A stretch of 64,000 nucleotides of DNA, from positions 62,001 through 126,000 of the forward strand of contig NZ_LWBP01000045.1 of assembly GCF_002078015.1 (NCBI RefSeq), given 5' to 3'. The position numbers were made by a program, and so were the translations under genes. Within the stretch, counting starts at the first letter, position 1. Each line of letters starts with the position of its first letter. The DNA comes from Niastella populi. Lineage in GTDB: Bacteria > Bacteroidota > Bacteroidia > Chitinophagales > Chitinophagaceae. Of the stretch, positions 7,958 to 61,501 are shown piece after piece. The notes under the pieces were generated by a model, which did not search any database, was not told the origin of the DNA, and was given only the letters and a program-made list of their open reading frames with translations.

Positions 7958-9120
7958 CAGTTGTGTATTACATGCAGGTTTGCTTTTTGGATGTTACCAT
8001 CGAGCTGATGAACGTTTTAAAAAAACATGTACAGTTACATGTGCTGATAGAAGTGACGCCGCAGGGCAGGAACACGACTGTGCTCGATATCGATCGTTTT
8101 CCGGAAGGAAAAATGCTGGCAAAACCGGAAGAGGTATTGAAGAAACAAAGTTATGATCGACTGCAGCCTTATTTTGAAGGCGCGGCCAGTGTGCATTTTG
8201 TAATTCATTCGCACCCCACCGGTTTTTCATACACTACCCTGCAGGCTTCGCACAGTGTTTGGCGATATATAAAGCAGTTCAAACCCGATATTATACATTT
8301 TGAAACATTCGGTTTACGTGCATTTGGAATGTTACCGTATTTGCCCTCGTTTAAAAATGTGTGTATCACCATTCATGATCCTGTTCCCCATAGTGGGGAA
8401 GATAGCTGGAAGGTAGCGCTGCCCCGTACTTTTTTCTTCAACATGCCGGTGAAAAAGAAATTCCTGTTCTATTCGGAATTTGCGAAAAAGCAATTCGAGG
8501 ATCATTACAAAAGACGTAAGAATCAAAAGACGGTGTTGCAGATGAGCCCATACGGCTATCTGAAGAACCTGGTAAAGGAAGAAGAACCCGGTAATAAACA
8601 TATTTTATTCTTTGGCCGGCTATCGCAGTATAAAGGAATCGACGATCTGTTACAGGCTATGCCTGAAGTGTTCAGGGAGTTTCCAAATGAACAATTGATC
8701 ATTGCCGGTAAACGGCATCCGGGTTTTGAGATCAATGACAATTTCCTGAATACTTTCAAAAATAATATCACGCTCATAGAGAAACATATTCCCAACGAAG
8801 AACTGGCAACGCTGATAAAGCAGGCGAAGTTCATTGTTTGTCCGTATAAAGATGCCACACAAAGCGGTGTGCTGATGACCGCCTTTGGTTTAAATACACC
8901 GGCGGTCGCAACAAATGTTGGTTCATTTCCCGAATTCATACAGGATAATGTGAATGGTTTGCTCGTTCCGCCCAATGATCCCCAACAACTGGCGGAAGGT
9001 ATACGGTTTGCATTACGCAATGAGCATTACAAAACGTTAGCGCAAAACATTAAGAATTCCCAGGTTGAGGATTTGTGGAACAGGAATACGGAGATACTGC
9101 TTAACGCTTACGCGTCCTGA
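7954..9120 (+). CDS. Glycosyltransferase, GT-B fold (GT4-like)
   Basis: 388 aa. The C-terminal half has the GT4 nucleotide-sugar region: FGRLSQYKGIDDLLQAMPE, IAGK, then VCPYKDATQSGVLMTAFGLNTPAVATNVGSFPE, which resembles the EX7E block. It probably adds one sugar of the repeat unit on the cytoplasmic face; donor and acceptor cannot be read from sequence. Start overlaps the flippase stop by 4 bases (ATGA). Confidence 0.87.
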   Translation: MTVVYYMQVCFLDVTIELMNVLKKHVQLHVLIEVTPQGRNTTVLDIDRFPEGKMLAKPEEVLKKQSYDRLQPYFEGAASVHFVIHSHPTGFSYTTLQASHSVWRYIKQFKPDIIHFETFGLRAFGMLPYLPSFKNVCITIHDPVPHSGEDSWKVALPRTFFFNMPVKKKFLFYSEFAKKQFEDHYKRRKNQKTVLQMSPYGYLKNLVKEEEPGNKHILFFGRLSQYKGIDDLLQAMPEVFREFPNEQLIIAGKRHPGFEINDNFLNTFKNNITLIEKHIPNEELATLIKQAKFIVCPYKDATQSGVLMTAFGLNTPAVATNVGSFPEFIQDNVNGLLVPPNDPQQLAEGIRFALRNEHYKTLAQNIKNSQVEDLWNRNTEILLNAYAS

Positions 9121-35318: not shown

Positions 35319-36575
35319 ATGAGTACAGTCACAAATACAAGGCCTGAGCTGGAATTTCATAAAGCGGCATTGCGGTTGAGGAAAGTGGTGCACAAAACAC
35401 CGCTGATGTACAATCACAATCTGTCGAAGAAGTACCAGTGCAGCGTGTATCTTAAGAGAGAGGATCTGCAGGTGGTACGTTCGTACAAACTGCGGGGCGC
35501 ATATAATATGATGAGCAGTTTGACCGCTGAGGAACTGCAGCACGGGGTGGTATGCGCCAGTGCAGGCAATCATGCACAGGGTTTTGCATACTCGTGCAAA
35601 AAGCTCAATGTGAAAGGGGTGGTTTTCATGCCTATCATAACACCTAACCAGAAGGTGAACCAAACGAAGATGTTTGGCGAAGAAAATATAGAGATCCAAC
35701 TGATCGGCGATACATTCGACGATTGTGCAGTTGCTGCAAAAAAGTTTACTGAAGAGAACGGCATGATCTTTATTCCGCCGTTCGATGATTACCGTATTAT
35801 TGAAGGGCAGGGTACTGTTGGCGTTGAGATCCTGGAAGAACAATCGGATGTCGATTATTTGTTCGTTCCCGTAGGCGGCGGCGGTTTAAGTGCAGGCGTA
35901 GGCTCGTATCTGAAAACATATTCACCTAAAACAAAAGTGATAGGCCTTGAGCCGGAAGGCGCTCCATCGATGTATGAAGCGTTGAAAGCCGGTTCGCCTG
36001 TAACGTTGAATGAAATAGATCGTTTTGTTGATGGGGCGGCTGTAAAAAGAGTAGGGGAGTTGACGTTCCCTATTTGTAAAGAGGTGTTGGATGATATGCA
36101 TCTTGTGGCGGAAGGAAAGATCTGTTCTACCATTTTGAAATTGTATAATGAAGATGCGATAGTGGTAGAACCTGCAGGTGCGTTATCGATAGCTGCGCTG
36201 GACGACTATGCCGATGTGATAAAAGGAAAGACAGTGGTATGCATTGTAAGCGGCAGTAACAATGATATCGATCGTATGCAGGAGATAAAGGAGCGAAGCC
36301 TGCAATACGAAGGATTGAAGCATTATTTCCTTATCAGGTTTGCACAAAGACCCGGTGCACTGAAAGAGTTTGTGAATCATGTGCTGGGACCGAATGATGA
36401 TATTACAAGGTTTGAGTACATGCAAAAGACGAATAAAGAATCGGGTCCGGCCCTGGTGGGTGTGGAGTTAAAGAAAAAAGAAGATTACGATATACTGTTG
36501 CAGAACATGCAACGTTATAACATAAACTATACGGCGTTGAACAAGAACGACACGCTGTTTGGGTATTTGGTATAG
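35319..36575 (+). CDS. ilvA: Threonine ammonia-lyase (biosynthetic, one ACT-like domain)
   Basis: 418 aa. PLP-binding Lys in VVRSYKLRGAYNMM, SAGNHAQGFAY, a glycine-rich VPVGGGGLSAGVG phosphate cup, and CIVSGSNND. After about residue 325 a single ACT-like domain follows (LIRFAQRPGALKEFVNHVLG), as in B. subtilis IlvA and unlike the two-domain enterobacterial form. It makes 2-ketobutyrate from threonine and so links the thr operon of this window to isoleucine. Confidence 0.95.
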   Translation: MSTVTNTRPELEFHKAALRLRKVVHKTPLMYNHNLSKKYQCSVYLKREDLQVVRSYKLRGAYNMMSSLTAEELQHGVVCASAGNHAQGFAYSCKKLNVKGVVFMPIITPNQKVNQTKMFGEENIEIQLIGDTFDDCAVAAKKFTEENGMIFIPPFDDYRIIEGQGTVGVEILEEQSDVDYLFVPVGGGGLSAGVGSYLKTYSPKTKVIGLEPEGAPSMYEALKAGSPVTLNEIDRFVDGAAVKRVGELTFPICKEVLDDMHLVAEGKICSTILKLYNEDAIVVEPAGALSIAALDDYADVIKGKTVVCIVSGSNNDIDRMQEIKERSLQYEGLKHYFLIRFAQRPGALKEFVNHVLGPNDDITRFEYMQKTNKESGPALVGVELKKKEDYDILLQNMQRYNINYTALNKNDTLFGYLV

Positions 36576-36639: not shown

Positions 36640-36800
36640 GAAGAAAGGAAATACAGAACATCGAATGTTGAATGGCCAATGTAGAATGTTGAAGTGGAAT
36701 ACAGGGGAATGAGAAATGAAGAATGAAGAATGAGAAATGAGAAAGGGAATACAGAAGTAACGAATGTTGAATGTCGAATTTCAAATATTGAATGTTGAAG
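36640..36800 (+). repeat. Word repeat (GAATGTTGAATG / GAAATGAGAAATG)
   Basis: Drifting copies of ATCGAATGTTGAATGG and GAATGAAGAATGAGAAATG alternate over 160 bases. The same words flank the REP-like elements at 9151 and 13229 and form the inverted pair at 42850-42936. No gene is supported here. Confidence 0.7.
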
Positions 36801-36919
36801 AGAAGGCTATTACAAAGCTGTTTATTAAGAATGGTATGTTGTGGGTTATAAGCTGGGGTTGTGATGTCTAAATGGTGCGGCAATTTTGGCACATCGGCAA
36901 GTTATCGAATTGGCTAATT

Positions 36920-37606
36920 AAAAAAAGCCTCGCCGAAGCGAGGCCATTGTCATAATGTCTGACGGGTAGCTTTTTCACGGATACGGATCACGGAAGAGTT
37001 GCTATACTTTGGTTGCTTTACGATATGGTCTTTTCACAGATATTGGGCCGTCAATGTTCCTAAGGGCGGATCAAAACATGTATGAATCTACCTAACTTCT
37101 AATAGGTTAAATAAGTGCAAAGGGCGTTCTGATATTGGATCCTAACATGTTGGTTTTTTCCCCGGATATTGAACAATGCGTGTAATGAATTACACGGGAC
37201 GGCGAACATTGGATTTTTAACAGGCTTTTCCTACGGATACTGAAACTAACAGGGTCCATAGATACAAGGGGCCGGTATTGGATTTAAACAACACTGGTTT
37301 TTCACGGACATTGAAACTAATAGCGATTGAAATTGCACAAAGCGATATTGGATAATGAACATGAAACGGCTTTTCTACGGATAATGGAATACTTGCCCTG
37401 CATAACAAGGCTGGATATTCAAAGTAATTATTTCTGATTTTTATGAACGCTGATCATGGCAATGCGTCAATCGGGCATGGCATACGTTAATGATATATAT
37501 CGATGAGAACAATTGAAAGAAAACAGATAACTATGGCTGTTATACAATGGTTAGAATATTCGCAGAGTAGTTTTGAATTCGGTCGCTATCAGAATAACTG
37601 TATTTC
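36920..37606 (-). ncRNA. Candidate repetitive structured RNA, about 690 nt
   Basis: No credible ORF exists on either strand. On the minus strand a consensus promoter (37613-37644) lies upstream and an intrinsic terminator lies at the far end: stem GCCTCGC / GCGAGGC with a TTCG tetraloop and seven T's (36920-36944), which cannot work on the + strand. In between, about six degenerate units of 61-76 bases repeat; on the minus strand each has ATCCAATATCG, a variable middle of 20-27 bases, then GTTTCAATATCCGTGGAAAA. Starts of the latter block read on the + strand near 36970, 37030, 37152, 37223, 37298 and 37371. TTTCA and TGAAA can pair around the conserved loop. No known RNA family is recognised. 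That it is transcribed is inference. Confidence 0.5.
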
Positions 37607-37612
37607 GCGCTG

Positions 37613-37644
37613 CAAAGTTACATCGTATCAGCACATCAAACAAA
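37613..37644 (-). promoter_or_regulatory. Minus-strand promoter of the candidate RNA
   Basis: Read on the minus strand: TTTGTTTG (37637-37644), then TAACTTTG (37613-37620), an exact TAnnTTTG. Spacing from the first TTTG is 20 bases and from the second 16. Start of transcription expected near 37606, pointing to the terminator at 36944-36920. Confidence 0.55.
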
Positions 37645-38325
37645 CGTGTTTGGTATAAGTTATACACATTATAACCCCGCTTAACACACGAATAATATTC
37701 ATTTCTTAGCGCATCGATCATCGTTAGTTGCTGTATGATAACCATTTAACAAGTGTATTGTAATAAAATGCAGCAACTATCCCTCATAGTTGCAATATGG
37801 GAATCGTATTTTCTTGTTTTGGGAAAACAGGATAAGCATGGGTTGCAGAAAATGTTAAAATGAATGTTACAGAACATTCGTTAGTTTATAAACGTGTAAT
37901 TCCTGGTTCTGCCCAACCGGCGAACCCTTCACGATTGCCAATTGCCGATGCACGATTGAACCCTGCCGGCAGTTGTTCCCCCAACCTGCGCGCACCCTTC
38001 ACGATTGCCAATTGCCGATGCTCATTTGAGTCCGCTTGCCATTCGCCACCTGCCTCTGGCCATTCCGAACAATCTGAATTGGAATTTGTCTATTTAAGGG
38101 TATGCAATACGGGATTGTCATTTTGACACTAGTTCCTGCGGATTATATTACGGGGGTCATAAAATCTACTACAGGGTTATCGCTATTTTGAGAAAAAAAT
38201 TGCATAAAACACCGGTAAATACGACGTTTTTTTCGTAATTTCAATCGCTTGCTTGCTATGTAATTAAACGATTTTTACTGATTTCGACTTTTAATTGAAT
38301 ATTTTTCAAAAAACTATGCATTTCC
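37645..38325 (+). other. Non-coding region upstream of gltB
   Basis: No supported gene. It holds a hairpin with 9-bp arms TAGTTGCTG (37725-37733) and CAGCAACTA (37771-37779), and a direct repeat of CCCTTCACGATTGCCAATTG (37926 and 37988 regions) belonging to the CGATTGCC word family; the 88-codon ORF over that repeat is not credible. The last 200 bases are A/T-rich and probably contain the gltB promoter and leader, but no exact TAnnTTTG was found. Confidence 0.6.
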
Positions 38326-41300
38326 ATGGCAAGTAACCTGGGTTTATATCATCCTTCTTTTGAGCGTGATGCCTGCGGCATTGGATTCGTAGCCAGCATT
38401 AAGGGGCATAAAAGTCACCAGAACATCAGCGATGCTTTAACCATATTGGAAAATATGGAACATCGGGGTGCCTGCGGTTGTGAGAATAATACAGGCGACG
38501 GCGCCGGTATTATGATCCAAACTCCTCACGAGTTTTTCTTCGATGAGTGCATTAAGCTGGGTGTTCACCTGCCAGCCTTTGGCCGCTACGGCGTTGGGGT
38601 AATCTTCTTCCCCCGCGAGATCCGTTTGCGTGAAGAGTGTCGTGATATTTTCAATCGCGCTGCAGAAAAGTTAGGACTGGAAATTCTCGTTTACCGGAAG
38701 GTGCCTGTGAATCCGGATGGCATCGGCCCCTCAGCATTGAGTGTTGAGCCTGAGATGGAGCATGTGTTCATTGCCTGCCCCGATCATATCAATAACCCCG
38801 ATGACTTCGAACGGAAATTATTCCTGCTGCGCAACTACGCCAGCCATACCATCAACAACACGGTGAAAAAAGATGCGATCGGTTTTTATATCGCATCGCT
38901 CTCTTACAAAACCGTTGTTTACAAAGGACAATTGACCAGCGGTCAGGTTCGTCATTACTTCAACGACCTCACCAATAAAAGAATGGTTTCTGCCTTTGGC
39001 CTGGTACACTCCCGCTTCGCCACCAACACTTTCCCCAGCTGGAGACTGGCTCAGCCTTTCCGCTTCATTGCGCATAACGGCGAGATCAATACGCTGCAAG
39101 GTAACCTCAACTGGTTAAAGACCAGCGAGCATGGTTTTACCTCACCGTTCTTCACCACTCAGGAAATGGAAATGTTGCTGCCGATCGTTACGGCCAACCA
39201 GAGCGACTCTGCCTGTTTGGATAACATGATAGAACTGCTGGCGCTTACCGGCCGTTCACTCCCGCATGTAATGATGATGCTGATCCCCGAAGCATGGGAT
39301 GGCAACGATCATATGGACCCGCTGAAAAAAGCGTTCTACGAATACCACGCTTCCATCATGGAACCATGGGATGGTCCCGCTTCTATTTCATTCACAGATG
39401 GAAAAATTATCGGCGCTACCCTCGACAGGAACGGTTTGCGCCCATCGAGATATTGCGTTACAAACGATGACCGCGTAATCATGGCATCCGAAACCGGCGC
39501 CTTACCGGTCGACCCTGCCATCGTTGTAGAAAAAGGCCGTCTGCAACCCGGCAAAATGTTCGTGGTTGATATGGAACAGGGCCGTATTATCAGTGACGAA
39601 GAACTGAAAAACGATATCTGTTCACGTAAGCCTTATGGCGACTGGTTGAATCAATACAAGATCCGTTTGGAAGAACTGGATGAACCGCGTGTTGCATTCA
39701 CTCACCTGTCAGATTCATCGATCCTGAAATATCAGAAAGCTTTCGGTTATTCCACTGAAGATATCGATGATATCATTTCGCCCATGGCCGTTGACGGTAA
39801 AGAACCTATTGGTTCAATGGGTACCGATACGCCGCTGGCCGTACTGAGCGATCAGCCTCAACACATCTCTTCTTACTTCAAACAATTATTTGCACAGGTA
39901 ACCAACCCGCCCATCGATCCTATTCGCGAGCGCATGGTAATGAGCCTGGCAACCTTTGTTGGTAATAACGATAACTTACTGGAAGAAGATCCAAGACATT
40001 GCCATACCGTGGCATTGAAACATCCGATACTTACCAGCACCGAACTCGAAAAGCTGCGCAGTATCGATACCGGTATCTTCCAGGCCAAAACCCTGCAAAC
40101 ATATTTCAGGGCCGATGGCAAACCCGGTTCACTGAAAAAAGGCATCGACAGGCTTTGCCGTTATGCCGAGGATGCGGTACATGATGGATTCGAAGTGTTG
40201 ATCCTTTGCGATCGCGCGGTTGACTCGGATCACGCTGCCATTCCTTCCTTACTGGCAACAGCTGCCGTGCACCACTATCTTATTCGTAAAGGGTTGCGTG
40301 GTAAGGTAGGTATTGTTGTAGAAGCCGGCGATGTTTGGGAAGTACATCACTTCGCCTGTTTGTTAGGCTTTGGTGCTACCGCCATCAATCCATACCTGGC
40401 GCTGGCTACCATCCGCAACATGAAAGTGAACAACACCCTGCAAACTGAGCTCACCTGGGATCAGTTGCGCAAGAACTATATCAAAGCCGTTTGCGATGGT
40501 TTGTTGAAAGTGTTCTCCAAGATGGGTATTTCAACCCTGCAGTCATACCAGGGCGCCCAGATCTTCGAAATACTTGGTTTGAATAAAGAACTGGTTGACA
40601 AATGTTTCAGCGGAGCCGTTAGCCGTATTGAAGGCATCGGTTTAGATGAGCTGGCTAAAGAAGCGCTTGCCAAACACTGGTTTGCCTTCAGCCATAAGGA
40701 CATACCTGTTGACCGTTTGCCCGTTGGCGGTGTTTACCAATGGAAGCGGAAAGGGGAGTTTCACCTGTTCAACCCAACAACCATTCACCTGTTGCAGTAT
40801 GCAACAAGGATGAACGATTACAATACATTTAAGAAATACACCAAAGCGGTAAACGATCAGAGTGAGAAAGCGGCTACCCTGCGCAGCATGTTCCAGTTCA
40901 AGGTGAACAGGCCTGCTATCTCTATCGATGAGGTAGAACCGGCTGAAAGCATTTTGAAACGCTTTGCTACCGGGGCCATGAGCTTTGGTTCTATATCATG
41001 GGAAGCACACACCACACTGGCTATTGCCATGAACCGCATAGGCGCCAAGAGCAATACCGGTGAAGGTGGCGAAGATGAAGTGCGTTATACGCCGTTGCCT
41101 AACGGCGACAGTATGCGTAGCGCCATTAAACAGGTGGCCAGCGCACGCTTCGGTGTAACCAGCTATTATCTTACTGAGGCCGATGAACTGCAGATCAAAA
41201 TGGCACAGGGTGCAAAACCCGGTGAAGGTGGTCAGTTACCAGGTCACAAGGTCGATGAGTGGATCGGTAAAACCCGTCACTCTACACCTGGCGTAGGGTT

Positions 41301-42849
41301 AATTTCTCCGCCGCCGCACCACGATATCTATTCTATCGAAGATCTGGCTCAGCTGATCTTCGATCTGAAGAACTCGAACCGCGCTGCCCGCATCAACGTG
41401 AAGCTGGTATCAAAGGCCGGTGTTGGTACTATTGCAGCGGGTGTGGCAAAAGCCAAAGCCGATGTGATATTGATCGCAGGTATGGATGGCGGTACAGGTG
41501 CTTCGCCTATCAGTTCAATAAAACATGCCGGTTTACCATGGGAGTTAGGCCTTGCCGAAACCCATCAAACACTGGTAAAAAATAAATTACGCAGCCGGGT
41601 GATAGTACAGGCCGACGGTCAGATGAAAACAGGCCGCGATATCGCTATCGCCACTTTGTTAGGTGCAGAAGAGTGGGGTGTTGCAACGGCAGCCCTCGTT
41701 GTTGAAGGTTGTATCATGATGCGTAAATGTCACCTGAATACCTGCCCGGTAGGTGTTGCCACCCAGGACCCTGAACTGCGCAAGCGCTTCAACGGTAATG
41801 CCGATCATGTAGTGAACTTCTTCAAATTCATTGTACAGGACCTGCGTGAGATCATGGCTGAACTGGGCTTCCGTACCATTAATGAAATGGTTGGACAGGT
41901 TGACTGCCTCGAAATGCGTGAAGGCATTACACACTGGAAAACAAGCAAACTCGATCTGTCGCCCATATTGTACAAAGAGCCGGCTGCTGCTTACACCGGT
42001 TTGTACAAAATGGAAGAGCAGGATCATGGTATGGCAGATGTGCTCGACTGGAAACTGCTGGAGGCTGCAAAACCTGCGCTGGAAAAACAGGAGCGCATTT
42101 CGGCTTCGTTCGCGGTTAAGAATACCGACAGAACCATCGGCACCATATTATCGAACGAGATCTCGAAGAAATATAAAGCGGAAGGATTACCTGATGATAC
42201 CATTCACTTCAGTTTTAATGGTACGGCCGGACAAAGCTTTGGCGCTTTCAATACGAAAGGCGTAACGCTCGAGCTGGAAGGTGATGCCAACGACTATTTT
42301 GGTAAAGGATTGAGCGGCGCCAAACTGATCGTTTATCCGCCCAAACAGTCAAGCTTTGTACCTGAAGAGAACATCCTCATCGGTAACACGGCTTTCTATG
42401 GCGCAACCAGTGGTGAAGCGTACATAAGAGGTAAAGCCGGTGAACGTTTCGCGGTTCGTAACTCAGGCGCTGAAGTAGTAGTGGAAGGTACAGGCGATCA
42501 CGGTTGTGAATACATGACCGGTGGCCGCGTGGTGATCTTGGGTGCTACCGGCCGCAACTTTGCCGCGGGTATGAGTGGCGGTATCGCTTATGTATATGAT
42601 GTGAAAGGGCAGTTCGCCTCTATGTGCAATAAAGAAATGGTTGACCTCGATCCGGTAGATGCAGAAGATGCACAGGCGTTGAATGATATGATCACCCGCC
42701 ACTACGCATATACCGGCAGTACTGTAGCCCGTTTTGTGTTGGACGATTTCGAGAACCAGTTGAAGAACTTCATTAAAGTGTTTCCGAAAGATTACAAAAA
42801 AGCTTTACAGGAAAAGAGCAAGGTTAAACAGAGCGCCAAAAAGAAGTAA
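38326..42849 (+). CDS. gltB: Glutamate synthase, large subunit
   Basis: 1507 aa, full length. The class-II glutaminase nucleophile is Cys17 in [10 protein letters not shown], so the first 16 residues are a propeptide to be removed. Further: [12 protein letters not shown], the central domain, FMN domain with [10 protein letters not shown] and [11 protein letters not shown], the 3Fe-4S cysteines in [15 protein letters not shown], and the C-terminal GXGXG beta-helix domain ([23 protein letters not shown]). It makes two glutamate from glutamine and 2-oxoglutarate. gltD follows. Confidence 0.97.
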
Positions 42850-47788: not shown

Positions 47789-48186
47789 CTTGCCCTGACG
47801 GCAGACTGAGTATTACCAGATTGTAAACAAATCCAATTTTAAAGCATACCAAACAAATACAAACTGCAGGCTGAACTCACCGTTTGCCTGGGGTTGGTCT
47901 GGGCTTGGTCTGCGTTTGGTTTGGGCCAGGTCTGTGATTGAGTAAAGGCGGTTGTTGTAAAGAGGCGAGGGAGGTATTGTGAAAAACGGGGAGCAATGGC
48001 GCTTTGCCATAAAGGAAATAGTTATATTACAAATAATATTATATATTCCATAATTGACATGATGAAGCTAAAAAATGGTATTTTTGATCCTAGTTAAAGA
48101 TGTATGTTGGAATTAATACAATGATAATAGCGGATATTGGATATTTTATTACATTGTATTTTTCTTAATGTTTTAAATTGGTGGTT
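47789..48186 (+). other. Gap without supported gene
   Basis: Contains a drifting GGTCTGCGTTTGGTTTGGG / GGTCTGGGCTTGGTCTG word repeat at about 47884-47935, then A/T-rich sequence with no clear promoter or ORF. Confidence 0.5.
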
Positions 48187-61320: not shown

Positions 61321-61364
61321 CTTTCAATATGTTGTATTTCAGTATTGTAGAAGCTTTTATCTGA

Positions 61365-61482
61365 CTTATCTGTCCCGCCTTCCGCGGGATGGAGTTGGCA
61401 CCTTACAGCGGTTATATTGCAAACCAGCATGCAGGTTGTCAAGGCTTCATCGGGCCATTTCCCTCAGCCTTTCTTGATAAGC
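61365..61482 (-). ncRNA. SAM-I riboswitch aptamer (S-box)
   Basis: On the minus strand the 118-base aptamer shows the S-box order: P1 CTTATC, AAGAAAGGCTGAGGGA, ATGGCCCGATGAAGCC, a GGCAACC-like TTGACAACC, GGTGCCAACTCC, and closing GATAAG. The P1 3' strand shares bases with the antiterminator TAAGTCAGA, so SAM binding should release TCTGACTTA to form the terminator at 61292-61320, switching off metB and probably the QueF-like gene and hom. Identity rests on the conserved core; regulation follows the known mechanism. Confidence 0.96.
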
Positions 61483-61501
61483 GATGTATAAAGAACTGGT
61501 G

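Follow-up and report, generated by a model that had tools for sequence, protein, structure and literature searches.

A predicted repeat-bearing noncoding RNA gene upstream of gltB in Niastella populi and its multicopy relatives in the Chitinophagaceae

What occupies a stretch of roughly 690 nucleotides, devoid of any credible ORF, that lies between ilvA and gltB in Niastella populi? We approached this question in a window of 64,000 nt (the whole stretch of DNA analysed). The interval is flanked by ilvA, coding for threonine dehydratase (35319..36575, plus strand; Pfam PALP and Thr_dehydrat_C), which is convergent with the predicted RNA and lies downstream of it, and by the divergent gltB, coding for the large subunit of glutamate synthase (38326..42849, plus strand; GATase_2, Glu_synthase and GXGXG). 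The RNA gene itself (36920..37612, minus strand, ~690 nt) is delineated by a promoter, a terminator and the alignment of its orthologues in the genus; its 5' end, near 37612-37605, is placed from the promoter, and its 3' end is the T run of the terminator. An earlier sequence-only reading had proposed a Bacteroidota promoter on this strand, and one is indeed present (37613..37644): TTTG at 37644-37641 is followed by 20 nt and then by TAACTTTG at 37620-37613, giving the form TTTG-N20-TAACTTTG. The minus-strand-only terminator with a TTCG tetraloop, which that reading had also claimed, is likewise found as GGCCTCGC-TTCG-GCGAGGCT and a T run (36919..36945), with its stem at 36945-36926. The claim that the stretch lacks a credible ORF also stands: its longest ATG ORF of 50 aa lies near the shuffle mean of 45 aa, and across the ten orthologous RNAs the longest such ORFs (23-91 aa) set against shuffle means of 42-55 aa argue against a coding role.

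Upstream of the promoter lies a candidate control region (37645..37770, minus strand), in which blocks such as CTAACG...ATCA...CTAAG are well conserved by eye in the ten-genome alignment. The DNA around the gene holds several further elements: an imperfect inverted repeat (37711-37793; 26-nt arms, 73%) and a terminator-like hairpin on the minus strand (37793-37773), both upstream of the promoter; low-complexity degenerate repeats (GAATGTTGAATG..., GAATGAGAAATGA) at 36660-36800, between ilvA and the terminator; and, elsewhere in the window, a SAM riboswitch (61363-61483, minus strand; RF00162, 74.2 bits, E 1.5e-15).

DNA searches recovered the gltB RNA in all ten genomes of the genus, that of N. 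populi included, and in none of 49 genomes outside it in the draw of relatives. Its position between ilvA and gltB and its orientation are constant across the ten, with the G008 contig stopping within gltB. The sequence-only reading had staked its proposal on conservation of the signals in relatives, and here the outcome is favourable: the promoter box TAnnTTTGCAGCGC, with TTG 20 nt from it (TTG-N20-TAnnTTTG), occurs in 10/10 orthologues, as does a terminator hairpin with a T run, its stem letters differing by eye, and the blocks upstream of the promoter are also conserved. The number of repeat units varies among species. N. populi holds no further copy of the whole RNA (closest other match E 0.12), and plasmids gave no match. 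Judged by sequence, the genus is the Niastella/Longitalea group: over 2,744 nt a locus from one member is identical to Longitalea arenae SYSU D01084, and 5,174 nt of a Niastella yeongjuensis record match a locus of N. populi at 82.8% identity. Genome G005 (9,033,684 bases), on which several counts below were made, we take to be probably Niastella koreensis.

Searches against Rfam 15 at gathering thresholds, which the sequence-only reading, having recognised no known family, had recommended, returned nothing at the site (13 sub-threshold matches lie around it) and nothing in eight loci of relatives, and we found no description of this RNA family in the open-access literature. With its signals and synteny preserved in 10/10 genomes of the genus, the earlier proposal, that this is a repetitive RNA not yet described and equipped with a promoter and terminator of its own, is thus well supported, and the family of Chitinophagaceae RNAs set out below is apparently undescribed.

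The internal organization of the RNA is dominated by a repeated unit that reads, in the RNA sense, AAUCCAAUAUC...UUCAAUAUCCGnGGAAAAnCCA and comprises a block A (AATCCAATATC), a middle with a consensus of its own and a block B (TTCAATATCCGnGGAAAAnCCA). A sequence-only model built exclusively from units of gltB RNAs (R1) detects three full units on the minus strand, at 37295..37363 (block A AATCCAATATC and block B TTCAATATCCG..GAAAAACCA; 52.2 bits, E 2.4e-15), 37227..37293 (43.5 bits) and 37155..37224 (41.3 bits), followed by a partial unit of block A and middle at 37099..37146 (27.8 bits). To these may be added, on the same strand, a leading partial unit with block B TTCCATTATCCGTAGAAAAGCC (37370..37418, with a repeat copy at 37371-37389; 7.5 bits, E 0.21), a diverged block B, CCCAATATCTGTGAAAAGACCA, seen by eye at 37028..37049 (6.5 bits, E 0.43), and a further diverged block B seen by eye near 36970-36984. 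The earlier count of six units of ~72 bases holds loosely: six second-type blocks can be counted by eye, but R1 finds three full, one partial and two weak matches; and the unit middles, which had been called variable, carry a CCCTGTGCACTTTTTAACCTATTAG-like consensus by eye. Four copies of a 19-nt repeat are spaced at 71, 71 and 73 nt. Stripped to its essentials, the module common to this RNA and to the relatives described below is linear, about UCCAAUAUCC-N3..8-GAAAANCC, and the gltB RNA holds about ten such blocks by eye. Counted as ATCC-N1..12-AAAA-N0..2-CC, it occurs 3.40 times per RNA in the ten orthologues, as against 0.08 times in shuffled sequence. A weak R1 match elsewhere in the window (48108-48149, minus strand, E 0.0066), free of any listed ORF and containing AATATCCAATATCC, may be due to chance or may be a lone module.

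The sequence-only reading had further suggested that TTTCA and TGAAA close a hairpin that displays ATATCCG in its loop, a notion that finds no support. Over 30 units the proposed pairs form in 65.3% of cells, a value equalled or exceeded in 456 of 500 shuffles, and RNAalifold predicts 0 pairs over the same 30 units. For the 693-nt RNA as a whole, the predicted fold is no more stable than those of its shuffles (z 0.25), which likewise speaks against a strong global fold. With no gain over shuffles, no predicted pair and no support for the hairpin, the conserved blocks of the gltB RNA look like linear sequence in these models.

CRISPR and TIGR-Tas arrays also present conserved short blocks at intervals, and the blocks here, at intervals near 36 nt, resemble them in that respect. 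However, the stretches between the blocks are conserved between species and the blocks themselves diverge, as opposed to the near-identical repeats and unique spacers of a CRISPR array, which does not fit such an array; no CRISPR, TIGR or retron genes were recognised by eye among the listed ORF starts.

Relatives of this RNA came to light through R1, which gives strong multiple matches only within the genus and weak matches in 50 genomes outside it. The latter led to arrays of the module at other loci: of eight loci inspected by eye, four (L041, L042, L045, L047) were judged related and four (L040, L043, L044, L046) chance matches. The relatives include a second, 'short' class of RNA gene with a constant layout: a TAnnTTTG promoter, a 5' end CAGAAGUUGAUUGAU, modules of the type UCCAAUAUCC...GAAAANCC and then the segment CAAUAUCARUCAACUUC, which pairs with the 5' end to form an 11-bp terminal stem. 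Copies occur in all ten genomes of the genus. A covariance model of the class (R2; 18 sequences from alignment A2, with the G002 copy left out) matched 58 of 396 genomes from the order, every one of them a member of the family Chitinophagaceae, and these span 21 of 165 genera; in a class-wide draw it matched 4 of 395 genomes, again all Chitinophagaceae. Both scans used stricter filters. Genomes with matches hold 1-8 copies (eight in G077, seven in G135, five in G013 and three in N. populi). The bare 5' pattern of the class marks at least 118 stretches in named records, and of the 33 run through R2 29 matched, in Flavisolibacter, Ferruginibacter, Ginsengibacter, Terrimonas, Flavihumibacter, Longitalea, Pseudobacter, Cnuella, Flaviaesturariibacter, Niastella and others; the four stretches without a match belong to organisms outside the family (Borrelia, Belliella, Bacteroides and an actinobacterial bin).

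The terminal stem is well preserved: its 11 pairs are standard in 99.5% of cells over 119 distinct rows, as counted on an alignment fitted to the structure model, and fall to 13-50% when the partner is slid by 1-3 columns. Two pairs are changed on both sides, in four cells of the 119 rows; the 18 sequences of A2 keep every pair intact, with changes on one side only. In many copies the GATTGAT within the 5' strand of the stem has a possible second partner in a nearby ATCAATC, which suggests, from sequence, that this alternative pairing may act as a switch. The 3' ends are less uniform. A perfect hairpin with a T run lies 260-347 nt from the promoter in six of 11 copies checked, the same rule finding none in the other five, and in the genus the copy flanked by cbs and btuF closes with a strong hairpin that lacks a T run. 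At that locus (L108-L117) the hairpin, CCTCCTGCTAAA...TTTAGCAGGAGG, is conserved in the genus and has a similar counterpart in other genera.

Two lines of evidence indicate that the two classes share the repeated unit. First, R1, built solely from gltB-type units, scores 101 matches at E<=1 across 492 kb of sequence from loci with short-class copies or related arrays. Because some of these loci had themselves been found through R1 or a motif pattern, we repeated the count on 44 loci found by R2 (350 kb, 59 copies). Here R1 gives 61 matches, of which 51 overlap a short copy on its own strand, five lie within 250 nt 3' of one and five lie elsewhere, as compared with one match in control DNA, 400 kb taken as twenty stretches at even intervals from G005. 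Second, short-class RNAs (108 copies, the first 360 nt of each) average 1.85 modules, against 0.11 in shuffled sequence and 0.01 on the opposite strand. The N. populi genome combines the gltB RNA with three short copies that share its multi-site motif. A search with the motif pattern marked 141 of 394 genomes, as against 28 for the reversed pattern, and part of this excess is due to simple heptamer repeats.

Modules were also seen in other settings. At L088 (G404 C313, ~8633-8810, minus strand) a tandemly duplicated module array (TCCAATATCTAACGTCCAATATCCAAACAACC) has a different architecture, and at L101 (G184) and L104 (G109) modules lie shortly 3' of the stop codon of a gene that is similar in both. 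At L102 (G270 C1, ~575155, minus strand) an mRNA-like leader with the promoter TACTTTTG has a module that abuts the start codon (TATCCAATATCCAAACAAAGACTAAAATCCAATATC-ATG); judging from its letters, this leader is a possible target carrying the same module site.

The genomic neighborhoods of the short copies hint at signal-responsive control. Response-regulator genes lie within 2 kb of 31 of the 119 copies and are divergent from the RNA (on the opposite strand, upstream) in 29 of these 31; the same rule gave no hit at 640 points in 400 kb of one genome (G005, overlapping windows). A cbs-like gene, a gene for a periplasmic-binding (BtuF-like) protein, or both lie within this distance of 40 copies, an RRM gene of one, and 47 have none of the neighbors sought, these labels being assigned by narrow motif rules within 2 kb, where 36 of the 119 copies have less than 2 kb of sequence on one side. 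Two of the short copies in N. populi face two different regulators, both with a receiver and a GerE/LuxR domain, and three regulators beside module RNAs or arrays carry this domain pair. The third of them (tested on the G084 protein) has a related array just upstream of its gene in G084, G169, G232, G098 and G237, and in G098, G169 and G084, the three for which ORFs were listed, the regulator is followed by a large ORF that looks by eye like a histidine kinase. Module arrays just upstream of a LuxR-type response-regulator gene were noted at L094, L095, L098, L099 and L100, with a terminator-like hairpin between array and gene at L098, L099 and L100; these arrays are a third class, which lacks the terminal stem.

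The promoters of the short class match this picture in part. Among 108 of the 119 copies (11 were dropped for lack of TAnnTTTG at the model start or for too little upstream sequence), 81 have TTG exactly 20 nt upstream of the promoter box and 40 have a GCA..TGC element overlapping that TTG (1.3 in shuffles), while the palindromes CGTA-N2..6-TACG and GTAAWTAC lie upstream of 32 and 40 promoters, respectively (1.9 and 1.4 in shuffles), so that each type marks under half of the copies. The gltB-RNA promoters show neither GCA..TGC nor four of the five palindromic patterns (0/10 each), with TTACGA in 1/10; control of the gltB RNA, which R2 does not match, by the same regulators is therefore not indicated.

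CsrB/CsrC and RsmX/Y/Z titrate CsrA/RsmA under the control of the Gac two-component system, exposing GGA in hairpin loops, and GacA consists of a receiver and a GerE/LuxR domain. The RNAs described here resemble CsrB/RsmZ in that a genome holds several of them, each of which has a promoter of its own and carries one short motif many times over; short copies often have a LuxR-type (GerE) response-regulator gene as a neighbor, and some of these copies have palindromic elements upstream. They differ in the motif, AAUAUCC, which is linear and lacks conserved pairing as opposed to GGA in hairpin loops, and in having no CsrA gene (0/10 genomes), no Rfam match and a home in the phylum Bacteroidota. 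They may work like titration RNAs, yet they fail two defining tests of Csr/Rsm, GGA hairpins and CsrA. With this proviso, we posit that the ~690-nt RNA is a noncoding, long member of a Chitinophagaceae family of regulatory RNAs that may act by multi-site titration as CsrB/RsmZ do, a reading whose chances we judge to fall just short of even. A regulated promoter would switch the RNA on, its several unpaired modules would bind many copies of one post-transcriptional regulator, and the titration would free or block the targets of that regulator, as CsrB/RsmZ do through CsrA. Such a reading fits the many unpaired modules, the variable copy number, the several RNA genes per genome and the adjoining response regulators. 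The proposal of a multi-site decoy or scaffold RNA made by the sequence-only reading has gained strength from a multicopy family with the same unit often beside LuxR-type regulators, and, though conjectural, is still the best idea. More speculatively, GacA-like regulators might drive multicopy, multi-site RNAs that titrate an AAUAUCC-recognising protein, making up a Csr/Rsm-like circuit that evolved independently and without CsrA, with the gltB RNA as its nitrogen or amino-acid branch; this we regard as possible and rather doubtful.

The molecule bound would most likely be a protein, perhaps one of several RRM proteins. CsrA (PF02599) was found in none of the ten genomes of the genus, the profile matching in three of 14 control genomes, including E. 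coli; CsrA is therefore ruled out as the partner, which must differ from it. PMC12119571 sets Bacteroidota against bacteria equipped with Hfq, ProQ and CsrA, and ascribes KH, RRM and cold-shock proteins to the former instead. RRM matches number seven in N. populi and 12 in G005, and RRM proteins are perhaps candidate partners; two short copies of G077 are situated upstream of an RRM gene, at distances of ~0.9 and 2.4 kb and separated from it by another gene. The motif (CAATATC/AATATCC) is missing within 170 nt in all 22 RRM-gene leaders (30 loci tried, of which eight had no leader by the rule, and two of the 22 being the same gene), one of which holds ATCCAA, and it is likewise absent from the leader that precedes the RRM gene close to the G077 copies. 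There is thus no sign that RRM genes autoregulate through the motif, an idea against which the 22 leaders count. Many RRM-gene leaders (L190, L196, L202, L197, L194, L209, L211, L212 and others) share another conserved stretch, GTTAATTTGAGCCTCGCATTAGTATT..., which, to go by its sequence, is perhaps an autoregulatory element of these genes. The motif shows no clear enrichment upstream of the starts of 299 G005 genes (CAATATC five times in sense, none in antisense), so that no same-site regulon is visible in this sample, which covers ~4% of one genome and would miss a small regulon.

The strongest competitor to titration, less favoured and in our view unlikely, is that these are base-pairing sRNAs with repeated seeds, which would use their unpaired UCCAAUAUCC blocks to anneal to sites resembling GGAUAUUGGA, either across many mRNAs or on a single abundant RNA. 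The blocks are linear and conserved, as such seeds would be, and multicopy sRNAs of this type exist in the phylum: the FopS RNAs of Bacteroides, associated with RbpB, repress by pairing near start codons, and, at ~65-70 nt, combine a 5' seed that is single-stranded with a terminator hairpin, as described in PMC11697453. They share with our RNAs the phylum, the multicopy noncoding nature and a conserved unpaired stretch; ours, which span about 260-700 nt, hold numerous modules and lie beside other genes, are set apart from them by length and architecture. At 259 start regions of G005 the mean hybrid energies slightly favour block A and A+B over scrambled queries (-5.04 vs -4.61 and -9.17 vs -8.24 kcal/mol), and a few single genes score well. 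However, block B hardly exceeds its scrambled control (-9.23 vs -9.06), all three queries hybridise more strongly inside the same genes (-5.67, -11.47 and -10.63), and the complement of the motif is not enriched upstream of the 299 genes (GATATTG none in sense, five in antisense), all within the same ~4% of one genome. Neither motif count nor hybrid energy thus gives a clear signal of targets near start codons, and the closest other match to the gltB RNA in its own genome is the E 0.12 noted above. Among other sRNAs of the phylum, those of Flavobacterium psychrophilum, including Rfp18, resemble the gltB RNA as independent sRNAs conserved within a genus of Bacteroidota (PMC9723704); unlike the repeat-bearing RNAs here, Rfp18 is described as strongly structured, and the part of that article used here does not mention repeats.

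Distinctly less probable than base pairing is a scaffold or storage role, in which the repeats gather several protein copies into a particle, or a complex is guided or stored by the RNA. It would account for the regular 71, 71 and 73 nt spacing of the four repeat copies and for the terminal stem of the short class, which closes an open loop; yet the number of units varies by species and that of short copies from 1 to 8, which suggests dosage rather than a defined stoichiometry. We consider it very improbable that the repeats act as DNA, binding a protein that controls ilvA or gltB, with the transcript incidental. The same two flanking genes in 10/10 genomes and a unit without conserved base pairs would be in keeping with such an array, but a promoter and a terminator are conserved around the repeats, the modules of the short class are strand-specific relative to the promoter (1.85 per RNA; opposite strand, 0.01), and that class occupies other loci and has a pair-preserving stem. 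Least credible of all is functionless repetitive intergenic DNA akin to the degenerate heptamer-like repeats (CCAATATCTAATATC) seen between genes in some Chitinophagaceae genomes of genera g5 and g57, given that the gltB RNA is single-copy, fixed in place and furnished with conserved signals in 10/10 genomes, and that its ~72-nt unit is complex and common to RNAs with a conserved terminal stem.

Finally, the reading by titration bears on a phylum in which post-transcriptional control is little understood. The RNAs described here add a family missing from Rfam 15, and, as multicopy RNAs with one repeated putative binding module, they offer a handle by which both the regulator and the signal input might be fished out in a large family of environmental bacteria.
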